A stretch of 64,000 nt of DNA. It comes from Nitrospirota bacterium (GTDB taxonomy: Bacteria; Nitrospirota; Nitrospiria; Nitrospirales; Nitrospiraceae). Below the pieces are notes generated by a model. That model ran no database searches. It was not told where the DNA came from and saw only the letters and a list, made by a program, of their open reading frames with translations. Where the stretch lies: assembly GCA_030684575.1 (NCBI GenBank), contig JAUXVD010000008.1, forward strand, positions 186,001 to 250,000. The letters run 5' to 3'. Below are positions 11,398-60,193 of the stretch, one piece after another. Made by a program: the position numbers and the translations under genes. The stretch's first letter is position 1. Every line of letters starts with the position of its first letter.

Positions 11398-11441
11398 CGG
11401 TGAGAGAGGCCGGCTTGCTGATGAGGTATGAGGCGATAGGC

Positions 11442-12401
11442 ATGAGACGATGGAGTGAAATCTGTCAGACGTGGCGGCTGGTCATGCTGTTCTTATTCGC
11501 CGCGTGCCTTGCGCCACTCGCCTCTTGGCCCGATATCTCGTACGCCGATCATTTGTCTCCCAAACACGACCCCTGGGCGCAACCCTGGGAGCTGGAACGG
11601 TTGGCGCTGCTGGAGATTCCCGAGGGGATGGTTCCTGTGCCGGGAGGACCGTTCTTGATGGGTAGCGATCCCAAGGTGGATCGCGCGGCTGGACCTCAGG
11701 AGCAGCCGCAGCGGCCCGTCTCCCTCAATGCCTTCGAGATCGACCGGTATGAAGTCACCAACGTGCATTATCTTCGATTCGTGTTGGCGACTGGAGCGGC
11801 CTGGCCGGAGTTTTGGATGCAGGATCCCTTTCTCGAAAAGATGGCGTCACATCCGGTCATTGGCGTGAGTTGGGAAGAAGCCACGGCCTATTGCCGGTGG
11901 GTGGGAAAACGTCTGCCGACCGAAGCCGAATGGGAAAAGGCCGCGCGTGGTGAGGATGGTCGCATGTTCCCCTGGGGGAACGAACCGGCCGGGTGGCTGA
12001 AAAGTAATATCGCCCATTCGGGATCGAAACGAGGCTTTAAGTATCCGCCGCTGGCCAATGTAAACCGGTATGACAAGGGTGTCAGCCCCTACGGTGTCCA
12101 TCAAATGGCCGGTAACGTCAGTGAGTGGGTGTCGGATTGGTTCGACCCCGAGTACTACCGGAGCAGCCTGCCGGACAATCCGACGGGACCGGCGACCGGC
12201 GAACTCAAAGTGTTCCGTGGCGGTTCCTGGAACGAAGATCCGGAGGTCGCGCGATCCGCAGGCCGTAATGGCGGCACGCCGGACCGCAGAAGTTATTTGA
12301 CGGGATTGCGATGTGCGAAATCAGCAGTAGGCAAGGGGCTTGAGGCGAAAGGCGAGAGGGGGGAGTCCGATCCCCTCTTGCCGCTGGCCTCGCGCCGCTA
12401 G
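11442..12401 (+). CDS. Exported formylglycine-generating-enzyme-like (SUMF1) protein, catalytic Cys absent
   Basis: 319 residues with a signal peptide (hydrophobic run LVMLFLFAACLAPLA) followed by an FGE-sulfatase domain: MVPVPGGPFLMGS, RYEVTN, GVSWEEATAYCRW, LPTEAEWEKAARG, FPWGNE, GNVSEWVSDW and FRGGSW. True FGE proteins carry two active-site cysteines just after RGGSW; here the stretch is NEDPEVARSAGR, with none, so it should not make formylglycine. It may instead bind a protein or ligand, as other domains of this fold do. ATG 11442 follows GAGG at 11429-11432 and gives a compact signal peptide; ATG 11421 is an alternative. A paralogue follows 20 bases downstream. Confidence 0.85.
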   Translation: MRRWSEICQTWRLVMLFLFAACLAPLASWPDISYADHLSPKHDPWAQPWELERLALLEIPEGMVPVPGGPFLMGSDPKVDRAAGPQEQPQRPVSLNAFEIDRYEVTNVHYLRFVLATGAAWPEFWMQDPFLEKMASHPVIGVSWEEATAYCRWVGKRLPTEAEWEKAARGEDGRMFPWGNEPAGWLKSNIAHSGSKRGFKYPPLANVNRYDKGVSPYGVHQMAGNVSEWVSDWFDPEYYRSSLPDNPTGPATGELKVFRGGSWNEDPEVARSAGRNGGTPDRRSYLTGLRCAKSAVGKGLEAKGERGESDPLLPLASRR

Positions 12402-12421
12402 CCTGTAACAGAGGAGACCGG

Positions 12422-13396
12422 ATGATGAATGTGGCGGGAATGGAACGATTGGTGACAGTCAATCGGGTGGTGAATGCGATCATCGCCTTGGTAGTGGCCC
12501 TGGTGATCGCAACCGTCGCCTGGGGGCTCGATACGCAGGATGTGACGATGGAGTGGACCGAGGCGGGTAAGAAGCTTGCGGCAGAACGGGTGGCCACATG
12601 GAAACCCAAGGATGAGATGGTCCTAGTGCCGGCCGGTGAGTTTGTGATGGGCAGCGACAAGAAGACGGACCGGCTCGCCTATCGCGGCGAGATTCCGCAG
12701 CGGCGCGTTTATCTGGATGCCTTCGAGATCGGCAAGTACGAAGTGACGGCGCTGGAATATCTCAAGTTCGTGCTTGCGACGAATCGCCCGCCACAAGTGG
12801 ACTGGCGGTATGAGGGCGGAAATTTCCAAGAGGCGATGGCGCACCATCCCATTATGCATGTGTCCTGGTATGACGCCGATGCCTACTGCAAGTGGAATGG
12901 GAAGCGGTTGCCGACCGAAGCGGAATGGGAGAAAGCGGCGCGGGGAGTGGACGGGCGTCTCTTCCCTTGGGGCAAAGAATATGCGGGGCCGAGCCGGGCG
13001 AATTTCGGAAGAACCGGCCTGTCCGGTCCGGTGCGGGATCGTCCGGAGCGGCTCTTGCTCTATCCCCCGATCATTTCTGTCGATAAATATGAAAATGCCG
13101 TGAGTCCCTTCGGCCTCTATCAGACGATCGGGAACGTGTCTGAATGGGTGTCCGATTGGTACGACCAGGACTACTACGCCACGGCGCCGGATCGAAACCC
13201 CAAAGGCCCTGAGGTCGGTACGCAGAAAGCCTTCCGTGGCGGCGGATGGATGGACAGCACGACGACGATGCGGGTCGCGATGCGGAACGGGACCGATCCT
13301 AATACGAAGATCAATTGGATGGGATTTCGCTGCGCCAAGTCTGTCGGTGAAAGACAACAGCTTTCAGCGATCAGCGGTCAGCATGAGAAATCTTGA
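12422..13396 (+). CDS. Second FGE-like (SUMF1) protein with N-terminal membrane anchor
   Basis: 324 residues. An N-terminal hydrophobic helix (IIALVVALVIATVAWG) anchors or exports the protein; the rest is an FGE-sulfatase domain parallel to the preceding gene: MVLVPAGEFVMGS, KYEVTALEYLKFV, HVSWYDADAYCKW, LPTEAEWEKAARG, FPWGKE, GNVSEWVSDWYD and FRGGGW. Again the two catalytic cysteines after the RGG motif are missing (MDSTTTMRVAMRNG). AGGAGA at 12411-12416 precedes ATG 12422/12425. The pair probably arose by tandem duplication and is likely one operon. Confidence 0.86.
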   Translation: MMNVAGMERLVTVNRVVNAIIALVVALVIATVAWGLDTQDVTMEWTEAGKKLAAERVATWKPKDEMVLVPAGEFVMGSDKKTDRLAYRGEIPQRRVYLDAFEIGKYEVTALEYLKFVLATNRPPQVDWRYEGGNFQEAMAHHPIMHVSWYDADAYCKWNGKRLPTEAEWEKAARGVDGRLFPWGKEYAGPSRANFGRTGLSGPVRDRPERLLLYPPIISVDKYENAVSPFGLYQTIGNVSEWVSDWYDQDYYATAPDRNPKGPEVGTQKAFRGGGWMDSTTTMRVAMRNGTDPNTKINWMGFRCAKSVGERQQLSAISGQHEKS

Positions 13397-15073: not shown

Positions 15074-15331
15074 TCAGCACCGCGTATGCTGGCTGGTCGA
15101 AACATAGGCCAGAATGTCCGCACCACACTTCATCTGGGAGGCTGTGGCATCGGGGATCGCCACCTTGAAAAGATCTTCAATCTCGAAGAGCAAAGTCAGT
15201 TTATCGAGAGAGTCGAGCCCCAGGTCTTCTAGCGGTGTCTCCATCGAAAACTCGGCCAGGGGCGTTCGGGGCAGTCTCGCGGACACCTTGCCTTTAATCA
15301 TCTGGATCAACTTGGCAGGGACGGTTTTCAT
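15074..15331 (-). CDS. Acyl carrier protein
   Basis: An 85-residue carrier protein. The phosphopantetheine-accepting serine is in DLGLDSLDKL near residue 40, preceded by TPLEDLG and followed by a helix LLFEIEDLFKVAIPD, the classic ACP layout. It would carry acyl or aryl groups as thioesters. The start at 15331 has GGAGGA on the minus strand five bases upstream; the frame is open further upstream without a better site. It is the last gene of a minus-strand cluster with a deacetylase, a methyltransferase and a chorismatase-like enzyme, so it probably serves a secondary pathway rather than bulk fatty acid synthesis. Confidence 0.85.
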   Translation of the reverse strand: MKTVPAKLIQMIKGKVSARLPRTPLAEFSMETPLEDLGLDSLDKLTLLFEIEDLFKVAIPDATASQMKCGADILAYVSTSQHTRC

Positions 15332-15403
15332 CTGGTCCTCCATGTACGAACATGGCGAGGTCCCGAAGTGGATTGGAGGCTCGCAACGCATCATCGAATA
15401 TTC

Positions 15404-16543
15404 CTAGTACCGGTGCCCGAGGGCCTGTGCAACGGCAGTGGTCTCTTTGCCAGCCCCTGCCGGGGGTGAGGCCGCACGTTCACTGCGGCCATCGATCGAC
15501 TTGGACTGAAATCGTGTCGTCCCGCGCGTGAGAGGCTTTGTGCCCTGCGACGCGCCAAACGAGTCTGCAAAGAGAGTCGGGGCGTAGCCTTGCAGCATCA
15601 TGTGTTCGACGAATCCGTCAAGACGTGGGATGTTCTCCGGCGTCATGCCTTTCATGTTCCATTTGGACATGTTGCGCGGGAAGGACTGCCGATGTGCCTG
15701 CACGAATTCGTAGGGGTGGCAATAGAACACCAGCCGTGAAGCCTGTCGGGTAATCCGGCGGACCATCCACTTCATCACCGGCAGGCCGAGCACCCGGAGC
15801 GTGGCCATATTGATAGGGAACAGGAATGCTGAGGGGGCTATCTCAATGATCGAACTGTCTCCAGGCAGGCGAAGATGGCTTGACGAAAGACGATAGGGCT
15901 CACTCGGAGCACGAAAGTATTTCAGATAATGCACCCGGCCGAACCCGCAATCGAATCGCCTGGCCGGCACAGATGAATCGTAGCGGTATCCCTCGTCTTC
16001 GAGCGCACGCAAGGTCGTTTCGCCGATCCACAAGCTCGGGGCGCGGAACACGATGGGGCGAATCCCTGCGGCCTTCTCCACGGCGTCCGTGGCTAATCGG
16101 ATCCAGGCTCGCTGCTGGTCGTAACTGGCCGATCTGAAATCTTCATCTTGCTCGAGGCCACCGTGCTCCCACCCATGCGTGCCGAGTTCGTGCCCTCGCC
16201 GCCGGCATTCTCTGACCAGGTCTGGATAGGTTTCTGCAAACCGCCCGGCTACAAAAATTGTGGCCTTTAGTTTCCATCGATCGCAGAAATCCAATAACCC
16301 CTCCAGTCCGACCTCGGACCCGGGGACCCAGTCTACATCGATGGTAAAGTGCCATTGCTGGCAGAATTGTGCGCGCAGGGGGTGAAGACGTAGCGATCCA
16401 TCCGAAGGCTCAGAGGAAAATCGCGCCGGAGCCCGTTGGACAGGTTGTTTTTCCAGTACTTGAATATTTTTGTGCATCTCGGTTTCCGGTTTCTCTGACG
16501 TGTTCTTCGCCTTCGTATTCACTGCACTCATCGTGGCTCGCAT
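15404..16543 (-). CDS. NodB-type polysaccharide deacetylase family protein
   Basis: 379 residues. The NodB homology region shows FTIDVDW (catalytic/metal Asp), HELGTHGWEHGG (metal His pair HxxxH), FRAPSLW and a late FYCHPYEF histidine, matching the metal-dependent deacetylase family close to the exopolysaccharide PEP-CTERM-associated type. It lacks a clear signal peptide, so it may act in the cytoplasm on a lipid-linked or carrier-bound sugar. ATG 16543 is preceded by GAGGTGG; a GTG nine bases earlier is in frame. It lies 25 bases after the methyltransferase and 72 bases before the ACP. Confidence 0.82.
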   Translation of the reverse strand: MRATMSAVNTKAKNTSEKPETEMHKNIQVLEKQPVQRAPARFSSEPSDGSLRLHPLRAQFCQQWHFTIDVDWVPGSEVGLEGLLDFCDRWKLKATIFVAGRFAETYPDLVRECRRRGHELGTHGWEHGGLEQDEDFRSASYDQQRAWIRLATDAVEKAAGIRPIVFRAPSLWIGETTLRALEDEGYRYDSSVPARRFDCGFGRVHYLKYFRAPSEPYRLSSSHLRLPGDSSIIEIAPSAFLFPINMATLRVLGLPVMKWMVRRITRQASRLVFYCHPYEFVQAHRQSFPRNMSKWNMKGMTPENIPRLDGFVEHMMLQGYAPTLFADSFGASQGTKPLTRGTTRFQSKSIDGRSERAASPPAGAGKETTAVAQALGHRY

Positions 16544-16568
16544 CGTATCCACCTCAGTGTGCCTCCGT

Positions 16569-17495
16569 TCAGATGCGCGTCTGCTTCTTCGTCCGGTCTT
16601 CCTTGACCTTCTCTGCCGCCTGCAGGGATTCCCTCCCGACGTCCTCGGCGGACATCAGGCACGTCTGTCGCCGGTTACGCCGACAGACGAGGAGGATTTC
16701 ATCCACGTTCGCGGCGTCGATCAGACCAGAGGCCCAGGCAAGGCGGGGCTGTAAGAATAGCCCGATGGGGAGAAAGATTCCGTTGTACCAACGCATGGCC
16801 TGAGCCCGTTTGTGTGTCATGCCCCACACGGCGAAGTCCAGGAGCCAGCCGTTCCGGGGTTGCATGCCGAACAGGGCGCTTTGTTCGAGCGCCAAGGCAT
16901 GTTCTTCGAGGATGGCGAGGAGGTGGCGAGGGTCATAACGTCGAGCATGACCGACGAGGGTGTCGAAGCTTGTCCAGCGGTCTGGATGCAGGGGCACCGA
17001 GAAGATGACCGTCGCATCGTCTTTCGCTACCCGGCTGAGCTCGCGGAAGGCCTGCCGGTCATCCTCGATGTGTTCGACGATGTCGAAGGCGCAGACGAGG
17101 TCAAAGCTGCAATCTGGAAAGGGCAGGGCGGTAATTTCCCCGTGCATCGCGTGACCGCCGCAGGCCTTCAGACCGGAGAGCGCCGGACGGCTGATGTCGA
17201 CAAAGGACGTGCCCAGGATCGGGAGTCTCGGGCGCAGGCCTGGGCCGATTTCGAGTCTCGCCGGTGCCGAGGCGGCGAGCGAGGCGAGCCGCGGCCAGGT
17301 GTTGAAGCGGTGCGGCAGAACGACATGGCTTCCTGACCAGAGTCCGTCGTAGAAGTTCTGGTTGACGGTCGCAACGGTCGGGCGCGTCGCCTCCTGTACC
17401 GGGCTGATCTGCGTGGAGCCGCCATTGGCCGAGCCCGCGGTCTCCGCGCTACCCTGTCGACTCTGTCTAGGCTCTCTTGAAGCGATCTGGCTCAT
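16569..17495 (-). CDS. Class I SAM-dependent methyltransferase
   Basis: 308 residues. Motif I is LEIGPGLRPRLP, followed by an acidic strand end FVDISRP, then ALPFPDCSFDLVCAFDIVEHIEDD (motifs II/III of the Methyltransf_11 fold) and FSVPLHPDRW. A C-terminal hydrophobic stretch (WYNGIFLPIGLFLQP) may touch the membrane. The N-terminal 45 residues are low-complexity. The gene overlaps the 3' end of the chorismatase-like gene by 29 bases, so both are on one transcript; an O-methylation of a hydroxybenzoate-derived or glycan product is possible but not shown. Confidence 0.85.
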   Translation of the reverse strand: MSQIASREPRQSRQGSAETAGSANGGSTQISPVQEATRPTVATVNQNFYDGLWSGSHVVLPHRFNTWPRLASLAASAPARLEIGPGLRPRLPILGTSFVDISRPALSGLKACGGHAMHGEITALPFPDCSFDLVCAFDIVEHIEDDRQAFRELSRVAKDDATVIFSVPLHPDRWTSFDTLVGHARRYDPRHLLAILEEHALALEQSALFGMQPRNGWLLDFAVWGMTHKRAQAMRWYNGIFLPIGLFLQPRLAWASGLIDAANVDEILLVCRRNRRQTCLMSAEDVGRESLQAAEKVKEDRTKKQTRI

Positions 17496-18726
17496 AGTGG
17501 GACACCATAGGTTCGTGGAGACGGTCGGAAGATTGCGACAGCGTTCGATTCATGTCAATGGACGATCCTTGGGCCAGAACGCCCTCGATCTCCAGCAATA
17601 ACTCGCGTCGGCACATCTCTCCTTGAAGATAGAGAATCTGAGCATGGGACGGCAGCCGGTTTTTGAGGACGTTGTGGATCGCCGAGACATGCTCCGGGTG
17701 CCTGACATATATCTTGAAGAGGGCCTGTCCTGACCATTGTCCGCGAGCGATTCCATGAAGCCGTTCCGTCTGTGTGAGTAGTGCATTCAGGTTGTAGAGT
17801 ATTTCAAGGGTCTGCTTGTGAGGCTCTCCGATGTGAGCACTGATATGCCCGACCACGCTTGCCGTCCCGGCGATGAGCAGATTGGCCCCGGAGAGGGAGG
17901 GGCGAAGGGTGGCTCTCGCGAACGACGGGCTACATGGGCCGTACAAAGGAGGGTACTCGTATGCGCGCACCTGGCGTGGATTCTCGATATGCGTTCCTGG
18001 AAGTTTGGCTGCCAGAAAGTGGATGTTCAGCGGGCCGGACAGGGTCCCGACGGCTGTCCCCGCAGGCAGGGTGCGAGGGAAGCCCGAAAGGCCTTCGGCC
18101 AAGGCTTGATAGCGGCCGGCGCAAAATTGTTGGTACCGTTCCAGCCCGTTGGATTCACGGTTGATGTGGGGGAAGTAATTCCACATCCGCAACAGATGGG
18201 GGTAGCCCAGGGCACGGGCTTGGGCGAGTAGGCGTCGATAGGCGCTGTAGGTCACGGTATTCAACTGCGTACCGGCATGTTCTTCTATGTGCAACGCCCC
18301 AAAGAGCACCTCATCGCTCATGGCGCAGTGGATGTCCTCCGCCTGATGATAGGTGACCGGCTGGGGGCTCGTCCATATCTCGGCCATCGGAGGCCCGTTC
18401 AATTTCGGCAGATCGAGGTAGACAATCGGGCAGGCACCGGCGCCACAGGGCTCCCCGTGATTCCGGTCATGACGGACGATACCCAGGACGTGAGAGAGCG
18501 AGGTCTTCAGACGTGATTCGAGCCGAGCAATCTCCACATATTCCACGCAAAACGCACGAGCCGTGGATACTAGAGCAGATGGAGCGGACGTGACCGGTGG
18601 CCACTCAACGACTCGTTCCGCCACACATTGGTTTGACTTGGTTCGGTTCACAACCCGATCTCCACTTGTAGTCGACGTCTGCAAGGCGACCGTTGAAATC
18701 ACCGAGTCACGCGTGACCTCGGTCAC
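17467..18726 (-). CDS. Chorismatase-like protein (FkbO/Hyg5/XanB2 family)
   Basis: 419 residues. The C-terminal two-thirds match the chorismatase family that makes 3-hydroxybenzoate or dihydroxycyclohexadienoate from chorismate: YPHLLRMWNYFPHIN, then RYQ.F..GR, the block LIAGTASVVGHISAHIG, and a C-terminal CRRELLLEIEG where family members carry the catalytic Glu. Some 60 N-terminal residues look non-conserved. GTG 18726 is the furthest open start; a later GTG is possible. With the ACP, methyltransferase and deacetylase downstream it suggests a small aryl-acid pathway, as xanB2 serves in xanthomonadin synthesis; that link is inference. Confidence 0.8.
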   Translation of the reverse strand: MTEVTRDSVISTVALQTSTTSGDRVVNRTKSNQCVAERVVEWPPVTSAPSALVSTARAFCVEYVEIARLESRLKTSLSHVLGIVRHDRNHGEPCGAGACPIVYLDLPKLNGPPMAEIWTSPQPVTYHQAEDIHCAMSDEVLFGALHIEEHAGTQLNTVTYSAYRRLLAQARALGYPHLLRMWNYFPHINRESNGLERYQQFCAGRYQALAEGLSGFPRTLPAGTAVGTLSGPLNIHFLAAKLPGTHIENPRQVRAYEYPPLYGPCSPSFARATLRPSLSGANLLIAGTASVVGHISAHIGEPHKQTLEILYNLNALLTQTERLHGIARGQWSGQALFKIYVRHPEHVSAIHNVLKNRLPSHAQILYLQGEMCRRELLLEIEGVLAQGSSIDMNRTLSQSSDRLHEPMVSHYEPDRFKRA

Positions 18727-18867: not shown

Positions 18868-19221
18868 CTACGGAAGCAGCGCATCTCCCGCGACGTTCGT
18901 GTACACCGGGGTGAAAATGAACCCCAAGCCCGGGATGAGATACCACATGACCGACGTGTCAGATTGTACGATTCGCACCTTCGTGGCACCGGCTTTTTTC
19001 GCTTCATCGGCGAATGCCTGGACGGTCGCGTTGAGTGTGGCGTCTCCCACGATCGGTTTGCTCATGAACAGGTTGATTGCATAGTTCCTCGTGTTGATGT
19101 GCGTCAGCTTGTCGCCGTCAACTCCTTTAATACCGCGTAAATCACTTGCGGTATCGGTAATGGAGCAACCGGCGCCAACTCCCATGACTAACACGAGCAT
19201 CGCCATAGCGGAATATCTCAT
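18868..19221 (-). CDS. Small lipoprotein of unknown function
   Basis: 117 residues. A lipoprotein signal peptide (MLVLVMGVGAGC) leads to Cys19; the mature part is ~99 residues with no family I recognise. It contains TVQAFADEAKKAGATKVRIVQSDTS, an alpha/beta pattern, and a hydrophobic segment MWYLIPGLGFIFTPVYTNVAG near the C-terminus that could lie in a membrane. AGGAGGAA precedes the ATG. It has its own class II-type promoter about 80 bases upstream, the same family as the other stress genes. Confidence 0.75.
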   Translation of the reverse strand: MRYSAMAMLVLVMGVGAGCSITDTASDLRGIKGVDGDKLTHINTRNYAINLFMSKPIVGDATLNATVQAFADEAKKAGATKVRIVQSDTSVMWYLIPGLGFIFTPVYTNVAGDALLP

Positions 19222-59143: not shown

Positions 59144-60193
59144 GTGCCAACAACTGTCGCGGGGTATGCGCAAGCTGCTCGAATGAAGGGGGAGATCACG
59201 GTGGGGACTGTGTATACGTTTCGAGCCATCCAGGTGAAGGTCTGTTGGATGCTGATGATGGGAACTGTGCTGTGGGTGACCGGAGGGGCGGTGGCCCTGG
59301 CGGGTGAGGCCGGTGGCGAGAAGGTGACTCCTCCTGTCGATTGTCGTTATGAGACTGCTACTCAGGCTTCAGCGGCAGAAGGATCTGGTTCGACGGCGAG
59401 TATCCCGTTCCCCGATGGCGATGTGTTCCGTCCGCTCTTTGCGGACCCGAAGCAGCCGCAGACGTTCGCGAGCTTACAGGCCGCGAGGAACCGAGTCTCA
59501 AAGACCTCGACCACGGTGGGCTCGGTCGGGTTCGGAGAGAACTTCGGATTCTATTCGAGCCGGGACGGCTGTAACGGGTGGCAGGTGGGGATTTTGGCCG
59601 GTGTCTTCTCGCAATTCGATATGAATGCGCCGTCCACAGACCTCATCAATGCCGATTACGTGGTCGGTATTCCCCTATCCTGGCGGAGCGGCCTCTTCTC
59701 GACGCGTGTGCGCCTCTCTCATCAGAGCACGCACTTGGGCGATGAGTTTGTGCTGAATAATCCCGGAGTCGGCCGGGTGAATTTCAGTTATGAAGAAGCG
59801 GAAGCGATTCTGTCCATGGATGCTCCTGGCGGCTGGGGGCGCCTCTATGCCGGTGGCGGATACTTAGTGCATCGTGAGCCGGCCACCCTGGACCGGTTGA
59901 AAGCGCAGGCCGGGGTCGAACTGCGAGGGCCGACGTGGAGCAGCGGTCCGATTGAACGATTCGTGAGTGGGCCGCTCGTCATGACTCCGGTCCTCGGGGC
60001 GGATTTCAAATCGTTCGAACAATTGAATTGGACCCTCAACGTGAATGTCGTGGGCGGGCTGGAATTTGCGCGGGCTGGAGCGCTTCGCCGGTTCCGGATC
60101 CTCGTCAACTACTATCACGGCAATAATCCCTATGGACAGTTTTATGGGCAGAAGGTTGAGAGCGTGGGGCTCGGTGTGTATCTGGCCTTCTAG
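59144..60193 (+). CDS. DUF1207 outer-membrane beta-barrel protein
   Basis: 349 residues. After an N-terminal export signal (WMLMMGTVLWVTGGAVALAG) come FRPLFADPKQPQTFA, the DUF1207 signature, and alternating strands ending GQKVESVGLGVYLAF, whose final Phe is typical of outer-membrane barrels. GTG 59144 has AAGGGA upstream; GTG 59201 would give a shorter signal peptide and also has a purine-rich site, so the start is uncertain. Function unknown. Confidence 0.82.
   Translation: MPTTVAGYAQAARMKGEITVGTVYTFRAIQVKVCWMLMMGTVLWVTGGAVALAGEAGGEKVTPPVDCRYETATQASAAEGSGSTASIPFPDGDVFRPLFADPKQPQTFASLQAARNRVSKTSTTVGSVGFGENFGFYSSRDGCNGWQVGILAGVFSQFDMNAPSTDLINADYVVGIPLSWRSGLFSTRVRLSHQSTHLGDEFVLNNPGVGRVNFSYEEAEAILSMDAPGGWGRLYAGGGYLVHREPATLDRLKAQAGVELRGPTWSSGPIERFVSGPLVMTPVLGADFKSFEQLNWTLNVNVVGGLEFARAGALRRFRILVNYYHGNNPYGQFYGQKVESVGLGVYLAF

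Follow-up and report, generated by a model that had tools for sequence, protein, structure and literature searches.

The question raised by this locus is what a chorismatase and an acyl carrier protein (ACP) do together where no polyketide or ligase gene is in view. The window, which is the whole 64,000-nucleotide stretch of DNA analysed here, carries four genes on the minus strand (15074-18726) encoding a chorismatase, a methyltransferase, a NodB/CE4 deacetylase and an ACP. The open reading frames are found exactly where the original prediction placed them, the Pfam matches agree with the enzyme types it named (chorismatase, SAM methyltransferase, NodB-type deacetylase and ACP), and its guess of a Nitrospira-like host is right. 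The chorismatase and methyltransferase reading frames overlap by 29 bp, the methyltransferase is separated from the deacetylase by 16 bp, and the deacetylase and ACP reading frames are 9 bp apart. The four genes contain no internal stops, have dN/dS values of about 0.2-0.46 against relatives, and their order is kept in relatives. The block consists of real genes and is not chance open reading frame noise. A promoter and terminator scan gave no signal exceeding shuffled sequence. Upstream of the chorismatase is a small lipoprotein-like protein (18868..19221, minus strand), which is without a match in Pfam and NCBIfam and is found with 68-98% identity at the same position in loci of the window type (type W) in relatives.

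The chorismatase (17467..18726, minus strand) belongs to the FkbO/Hyg5/XanB2 family and, within it, to a lineage designated W. It matches the FkbO/Hyg5-like N-terminal domain PF21168 at 8.4e-38, TIGR04444 at 8.7e-68, which is under that model's cut-off, and the FkbO structure 4bps with an E-value of 5e-47. When an AlphaFold2 model (mean pLDDT 77, pTM 0.76) is aligned with FkbO (4bps) and Hyg5 (5ag3), Z is 39-40 over 321-325 residues, and YjgF folds match residues 240-390. As modelled, the protein has the chorismatase fold with an N-terminal domain and a YjgF-like C-terminal domain. Fold and catalytic glutamate are common to FkbO, Hyg5 and the window enzyme, while identity to either is only about 31-33% and the pathway context differs. 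E379 corresponds to Hyg5 E334 and Nat-hyg5 E325, a glutamate with a catalytic role (PMC7170507). The loss of catalytic residues, which had been named as evidence that would count against the prediction, is not seen in the alignment or in the AlphaFold2 superposition. Conservation is poor over the first 55 or so residues, which leaves the start codon in doubt.

The residues around the active site bear on the product. C372 and G287 correspond to Hyg5 C327 and G240, and FkbO has alanine at both positions. The Hyg5 (CH-II) subclass is defined by Gly164, Gly231 and Cys318 of Nat-hyg5 (G173, G240 and C327 in Hyg5, a mapping inferred through a constant offset of 9). The window enzyme falls outside this three-residue definition, with A225 at the position of Hyg5 G173, and all aligned homologues from aryl-polyene clusters have alanine there too. 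The cysteine and the second glycine are those of the class that forms 3-hydroxybenzoate (3-HBA), Hyg5/XanB2, and not those of FkbO. From the catalytic glutamate and these residues, conversion of chorismate to 3-HBA is strongly predicted, with the reservation that a chorismatase product is unpredictable from sequence alone (PMC3949708). The XanB2 (CH-III) subclass is defined by the formation of both 3-HBA and 4-HBA.

The block looked partnerless in the original prediction, which saw no polyketide or ligase gene and suggested looking for a ligase or ketosynthase (KS) elsewhere in the genome. Both are present on another contig, C21, and the apparent lack of partners does not hold. Outside the window the genome has a second chorismatase and further ACPs and AMP-ligases. 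The region C21:14072-28637 encodes a XanB1-like flavoenzyme, a chorismatase, a CE4 deacetylase, a lipoprotein, a GT2 glycosyltransferase, a ketoreductase (KR), a chain-length-factor-like (CLF-like) protein, a KS, an MMPL exporter, LolA, an acyltransferase, a FabA-like dehydratase (DH), an AMP-ligase, an ACP and a methyltransferase. The KS is over the NF006618 cut-off with 517 bits, and the domain matches include PF13723 (CLF), LolA_3, Lip_A_acyltrans, AMP-binding and MMPL. Judged by gene content, the region is a full xanthomonadin/aryl-polyene-like gene set. The genome thus holds a type II KS with a CLF-like protein, KR, DH, AMP-ligase and ACP (C21; L019/L020), on a different contig from the window block and without physical linkage to it. 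Such linkage is not strictly required because split loci occur in Azoarcus too.

The window and C21 loci are related but distinct. The two chorismatases are 49% identical, and the small lipoproteins (18868 in the window, 17544 on C21) gave no alignment when compared. C21 by itself already supplies a chorismatase, a deacetylase, a methyltransferase and an ACP, which makes the window block redundant in formal terms. The dN/dS of the block is about 0.3 against 0.055 for the C21 KS, and this looser value means that reduced constraint or functional divergence is possible.

The other three window genes may modify or carry the aryl group. The class I SAM-dependent methyltransferase (16569..17495, minus strand; Methyltransf_11 PF08241, 2.5e-11) may O-methylate an aryl head group. 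It is found in the W blocks of genomes G155, G159, G143, G120, G066 and G058 and is absent from those of G136, G141, G150, G137, G149 and G016, which is about half of the blocks. The deacetylase (15404..16552, minus strand; Polysacc_deac_1 PF01522, 8e-20) matches CE4 structures and keeps the CE4 motifs, with IDVD at 71-74 (motif 1 Asp-Asp) and HGWEH at 126-130 (motif 2 His-xxx-His). It is 65.9% identical to its paralogue in the C21 cluster (L019:16480-17547), and its substrate may be a GlcNAc-type anchor. The ACP (15074..15394, minus strand; PP-binding PF00550, 1.4e-6) has a DSL motif with Ser62. Homology to relatives begins at an internal Met18 (about 15343), which is therefore the likely true start. 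The window ACP lies outside the aryl-polyene cluster ACP subfamily NF006617, with no match listed at E 0.1, and the C21 ACP matches that model with 107 bits against a cut-off of 70. Homologues with 67-89% identity directly follow the deacetylase in G155, G016 and G137. An absence of conserved ACP linkage had been named as a point against the prediction, and it applies in part, as the ACP is found in 4 of about 13 block-bearing genomes (the window genome and these three) and the linkage is not general.

The comparison of the locus in relatives, which had also been suggested, covered 175 genomes of the family. A chorismatase is present in 42 genomes and an aryl-polyene KS in 51. Two locus types are found. 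Type C has XanB1, chorismatase and deacetylase inside the cluster, and type W has lipoprotein, chorismatase, an optional methyltransferase, deacetylase and an optional ACP. In the tree, the W chorismatases (16 rows) and the C chorismatases (23 rows) form two separate groups, each on a fully supported branch, and both lie within the aryl-polyene chorismatases. The W block directly adjoins GT2-KR-DH-CLF-KS-MMPL genes in G136, G150, G141, G058 and G137. A decayed W copy lies beside CLF and KS in G093, where the chorismatase has a stop and the methyltransferase is short; this genome also carries a type-A cluster. Within the available sequence, no such genes adjoin the block in the window genome (G000), G120, G066, G159, G143, G155 and G016, of which G155 and G016 have it on short contigs. 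G149 has its W block and a type-B KS on separate short contigs and is placed in neither set. An aryl-polyene KS is encoded elsewhere in each of the seven genomes whose block is detached, compared with 51/175 across the family, and the chance of this at random is about 1e-4, uncorrected for kinship. A tree of the chorismatase and deacetylase shows the detached blocks as paraphyletic, and its key nodes are weakly supported; it therefore does not distinguish whether a type-B cluster was lost or whether the block became linked to one later.

Beyond the family, nearly all of the best 80 loci in the genome collection that have enough flank lie in aryl-polyene clusters, from Nitrospirota, Nitrospinota, and beta- and gammaproteobacteria. 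Three proteobacterial clusters (L116, L150, L151) also have a CE4 deacetylase, of another subfamily than that of Nitrospira. Their alignment to the Nitrospira enzyme spans only about 90 residues and they are closer to the XrtA type, so recruitment of a deacetylase to the Nitrospira and the beta/gamma clusters may have been independent. Judged by these three cluster deacetylases, direct orthology with arcN is rejected.

A close known parallel is the arc system of Azoarcus sp. BH72, where the genes lie in two unlinked loci and include the chorismatase arcB, the methyltransferase arcM, the polysaccharide deacetylase arcN, the ligase arcT and the ACP arcV (PMC3949708). ArcB forms 3-HBA, ArcT adenylates 3-HBA and not 3-methoxybenzoate, the arcuflavin pigment has a methyl group derived from methionine, and disruption of arcK or arcT abolishes the pigment (PMC3949708). 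Given the preference of ArcT, methylation in the present system would come after activation. The same kinds of genes as in the window block there serve one aryl-polyene pigment from unlinked loci, which like C21 contain type II PKS genes, LolA, an exporter, an acyltransferase and a glycosyltransferase. The Azoarcus halves complement each other, whereas C21 has the appearance of a complete cluster, some of whose functions the window block repeats; the Nitrospira deacetylase also differs in CE4 subfamily from those of the beta- and gammaproteobacterial clusters.

The xanthomonadin cluster of Xanthomonas and Lysobacter has a halogenase-like flavoenzyme beside the chorismatase (xanB1, xanB2), as here, and shares ligase, ACP, KS, CLF-like protein, KR, DH, acyltransferase and exporter with C21. 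Unlike that cluster, Nitrospira has a second chorismatase with methyltransferase, deacetylase and ACP apart from the PKS genes. The aryl-polyene clusters of E. coli and Xenorhabdus (apeA-R) follow the same logic of assembly and likewise have a second ACP and a head-group methyltransferase (ApeB), but take 4-HBA from UbiC, and the listed cluster contains no chorismatase or deacetylase (PMC8253772). There is precedent for a remote chorismatase that serves another cluster (PMC7170507). At the level of KS-III genes, of which the genome has only two, no partner cluster of the dialkylresorcinol type was recognised. The second KS-III gene (L153) lies beside a phosphate-transporter-like gene. Genome mining has reported antiSMASH-type aryl-polyene clusters in some Nitrospira species (PMC9765116).

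Taken together, the window block probably supplies the aryl starter and the tailoring steps of an aryl-polyene pathway of the xanthomonadin/arcuflavin type whose polyketide genes lie elsewhere. It would act in trans with C21 and its products would be starter and tailoring parts of a cell-envelope pigment. The parallel with XanB2 and xanthomonadin drawn originally is borne out by the C21 gene set and by linkage to aryl-polyene genes in relatives. The chorismatase would convert chorismate to 3-HBA, perhaps with some 4-HBA, and pyruvate. The C21 AMP-ligase is predicted to load the aryl acid onto an ACP, either that of C21 or that of the window as a second ACP, and the C21 KS/CLF-like pair, ketoreductase and dehydratase to extend it to a polyene. 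The window or C21 methyltransferase may cap the ring hydroxyl by O-methylation. The acyltransferase and glycosyltransferase would join the polyene to a lipid or sugar of the envelope, the CE4 enzyme would strip an N-acetyl group from this anchor, and MMPL and LolA, by analogy with known clusters (PMC8253772), would carry the polyene to the outer membrane. Tentatively, the detached module could be under selection as a second trans-acting unit for the type-A line, supplying a different aryl head (such as a methylated one or another mix of 3-HBA and 4-HBA) or a different deacetylated anchor, so that one line makes two pigments.

Other roles for the block can be weighed against the same evidence. 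The new aryl-ester or aryl-glycan pathway proposed originally is not needed, given the partner genes on C21 and the adjacency of the block to such clusters in relatives. In an independent pathway, the window ACP would bear 3-HBA or its methyl ether for transfer, with no extension of the chain, to a glycan or lipid that has been deacetylated. The block does have its own ACP, which is unlike the cluster ACP and could serve something else, it has no KS or ligase locally, and it is redundant with C21. However, it is not accompanied by a ligase or an acyltransferase, homologous blocks adjoin KS clusters, and an aryl-polyene KS is found in every block-bearing genome, so an independent pathway is unlikely. 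It is also quite improbable that a lost type-B cluster left the block behind as a relic, still expressed or decaying and with no present role. The type-B KS adjoining the block in sister genomes and the damaged chorismatase and methyltransferase of G093, which retains a type-A cluster, would fit a relic, but the four window genes are intact with the dN/dS values given above, and detached blocks persist in several subclades.

Membership in an exosortase (XrtA/PEP-CTERM) exopolysaccharide system is very improbable. The best NCBIfam match of the deacetylase is TIGR03006, and the genome has an XrtA-like region with ligase, ACP and deacetylase at C8:984-1000 kb. However, that match scores only 80.4 bits against a cut-off of 276.2, and the deacetylase of the XrtA-like region is 28% identical to the window enzyme, which is much nearer to its C21 paralogue; on these grounds the link is rejected. 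In addition, a chorismatase is foreign to XrtA systems, and relatives link the block to aryl-polyene genes.

The finding is most likely explained, for the greater part, as a split and partly duplicated xanthomonadin/arcuflavin-type aryl-polyene system. The kind of pathway is already known, and mild novelty is limited to the arrangement over separate loci and the doubling of some enzymes. What remains puzzling is the presence of a second set of starter and deacetylase genes at a separate place. The genus has two chorismatase/deacetylase lineages, one of which is able to stand apart from the polyketide genes. A seemingly partnerless chorismatase-ACP block is now tied to aryl-polyene pigments in nitrite-oxidising Nitrospira, and the recurrent CE4 deacetylase is a testable candidate for polyene anchoring.

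The small lipoprotein-like protein encoded upstream of the window chorismatase (18868-19221) is 96-98% identical in the nearest relatives, which is above the identity of the adjoining enzymes. A Pfam or NCBIfam family match was sought for this protein and none was found. In many of the window-type loci the deacetylase is followed by a DUF1207 gene (L055, L056, L057, L062, L063, L068, L069 and L071). The window has a DUF1207 gene that is about 40% identical to these, located 40 kb away (59144-60193). The related genome G093 carries a window-type copy (L067, contig C4) with an in-frame TAG in the chorismatase and a shortened methyltransferase, as well as an intact type-A cluster.

Elsewhere in the window genome, a 3104-aa ORF (G000:C23:47686-55989) contains three PP-binding and several AMP-binding stretches and is apparently a nonribosomal peptide synthetase. 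Judged by their sequence alone, two adjoining window genes (11400-13396) resemble formylglycine-generating-enzyme/SUMF1-type proteins, and a gene of similar appearance lies upstream of the C21 aryl-polyene cluster (L019:4183-5097).

When the C21 cluster of the window genome (L019:14072-17547) is compared with G159/RSF8 (L058, L091), its XanB1-chorismatase half has just 63-76% identity, whereas the neighboring deacetylase, KR, CLF and KS have 94-97%. This contrast in sequence identity marks a mosaic border, which suggests recombination or gene exchange.
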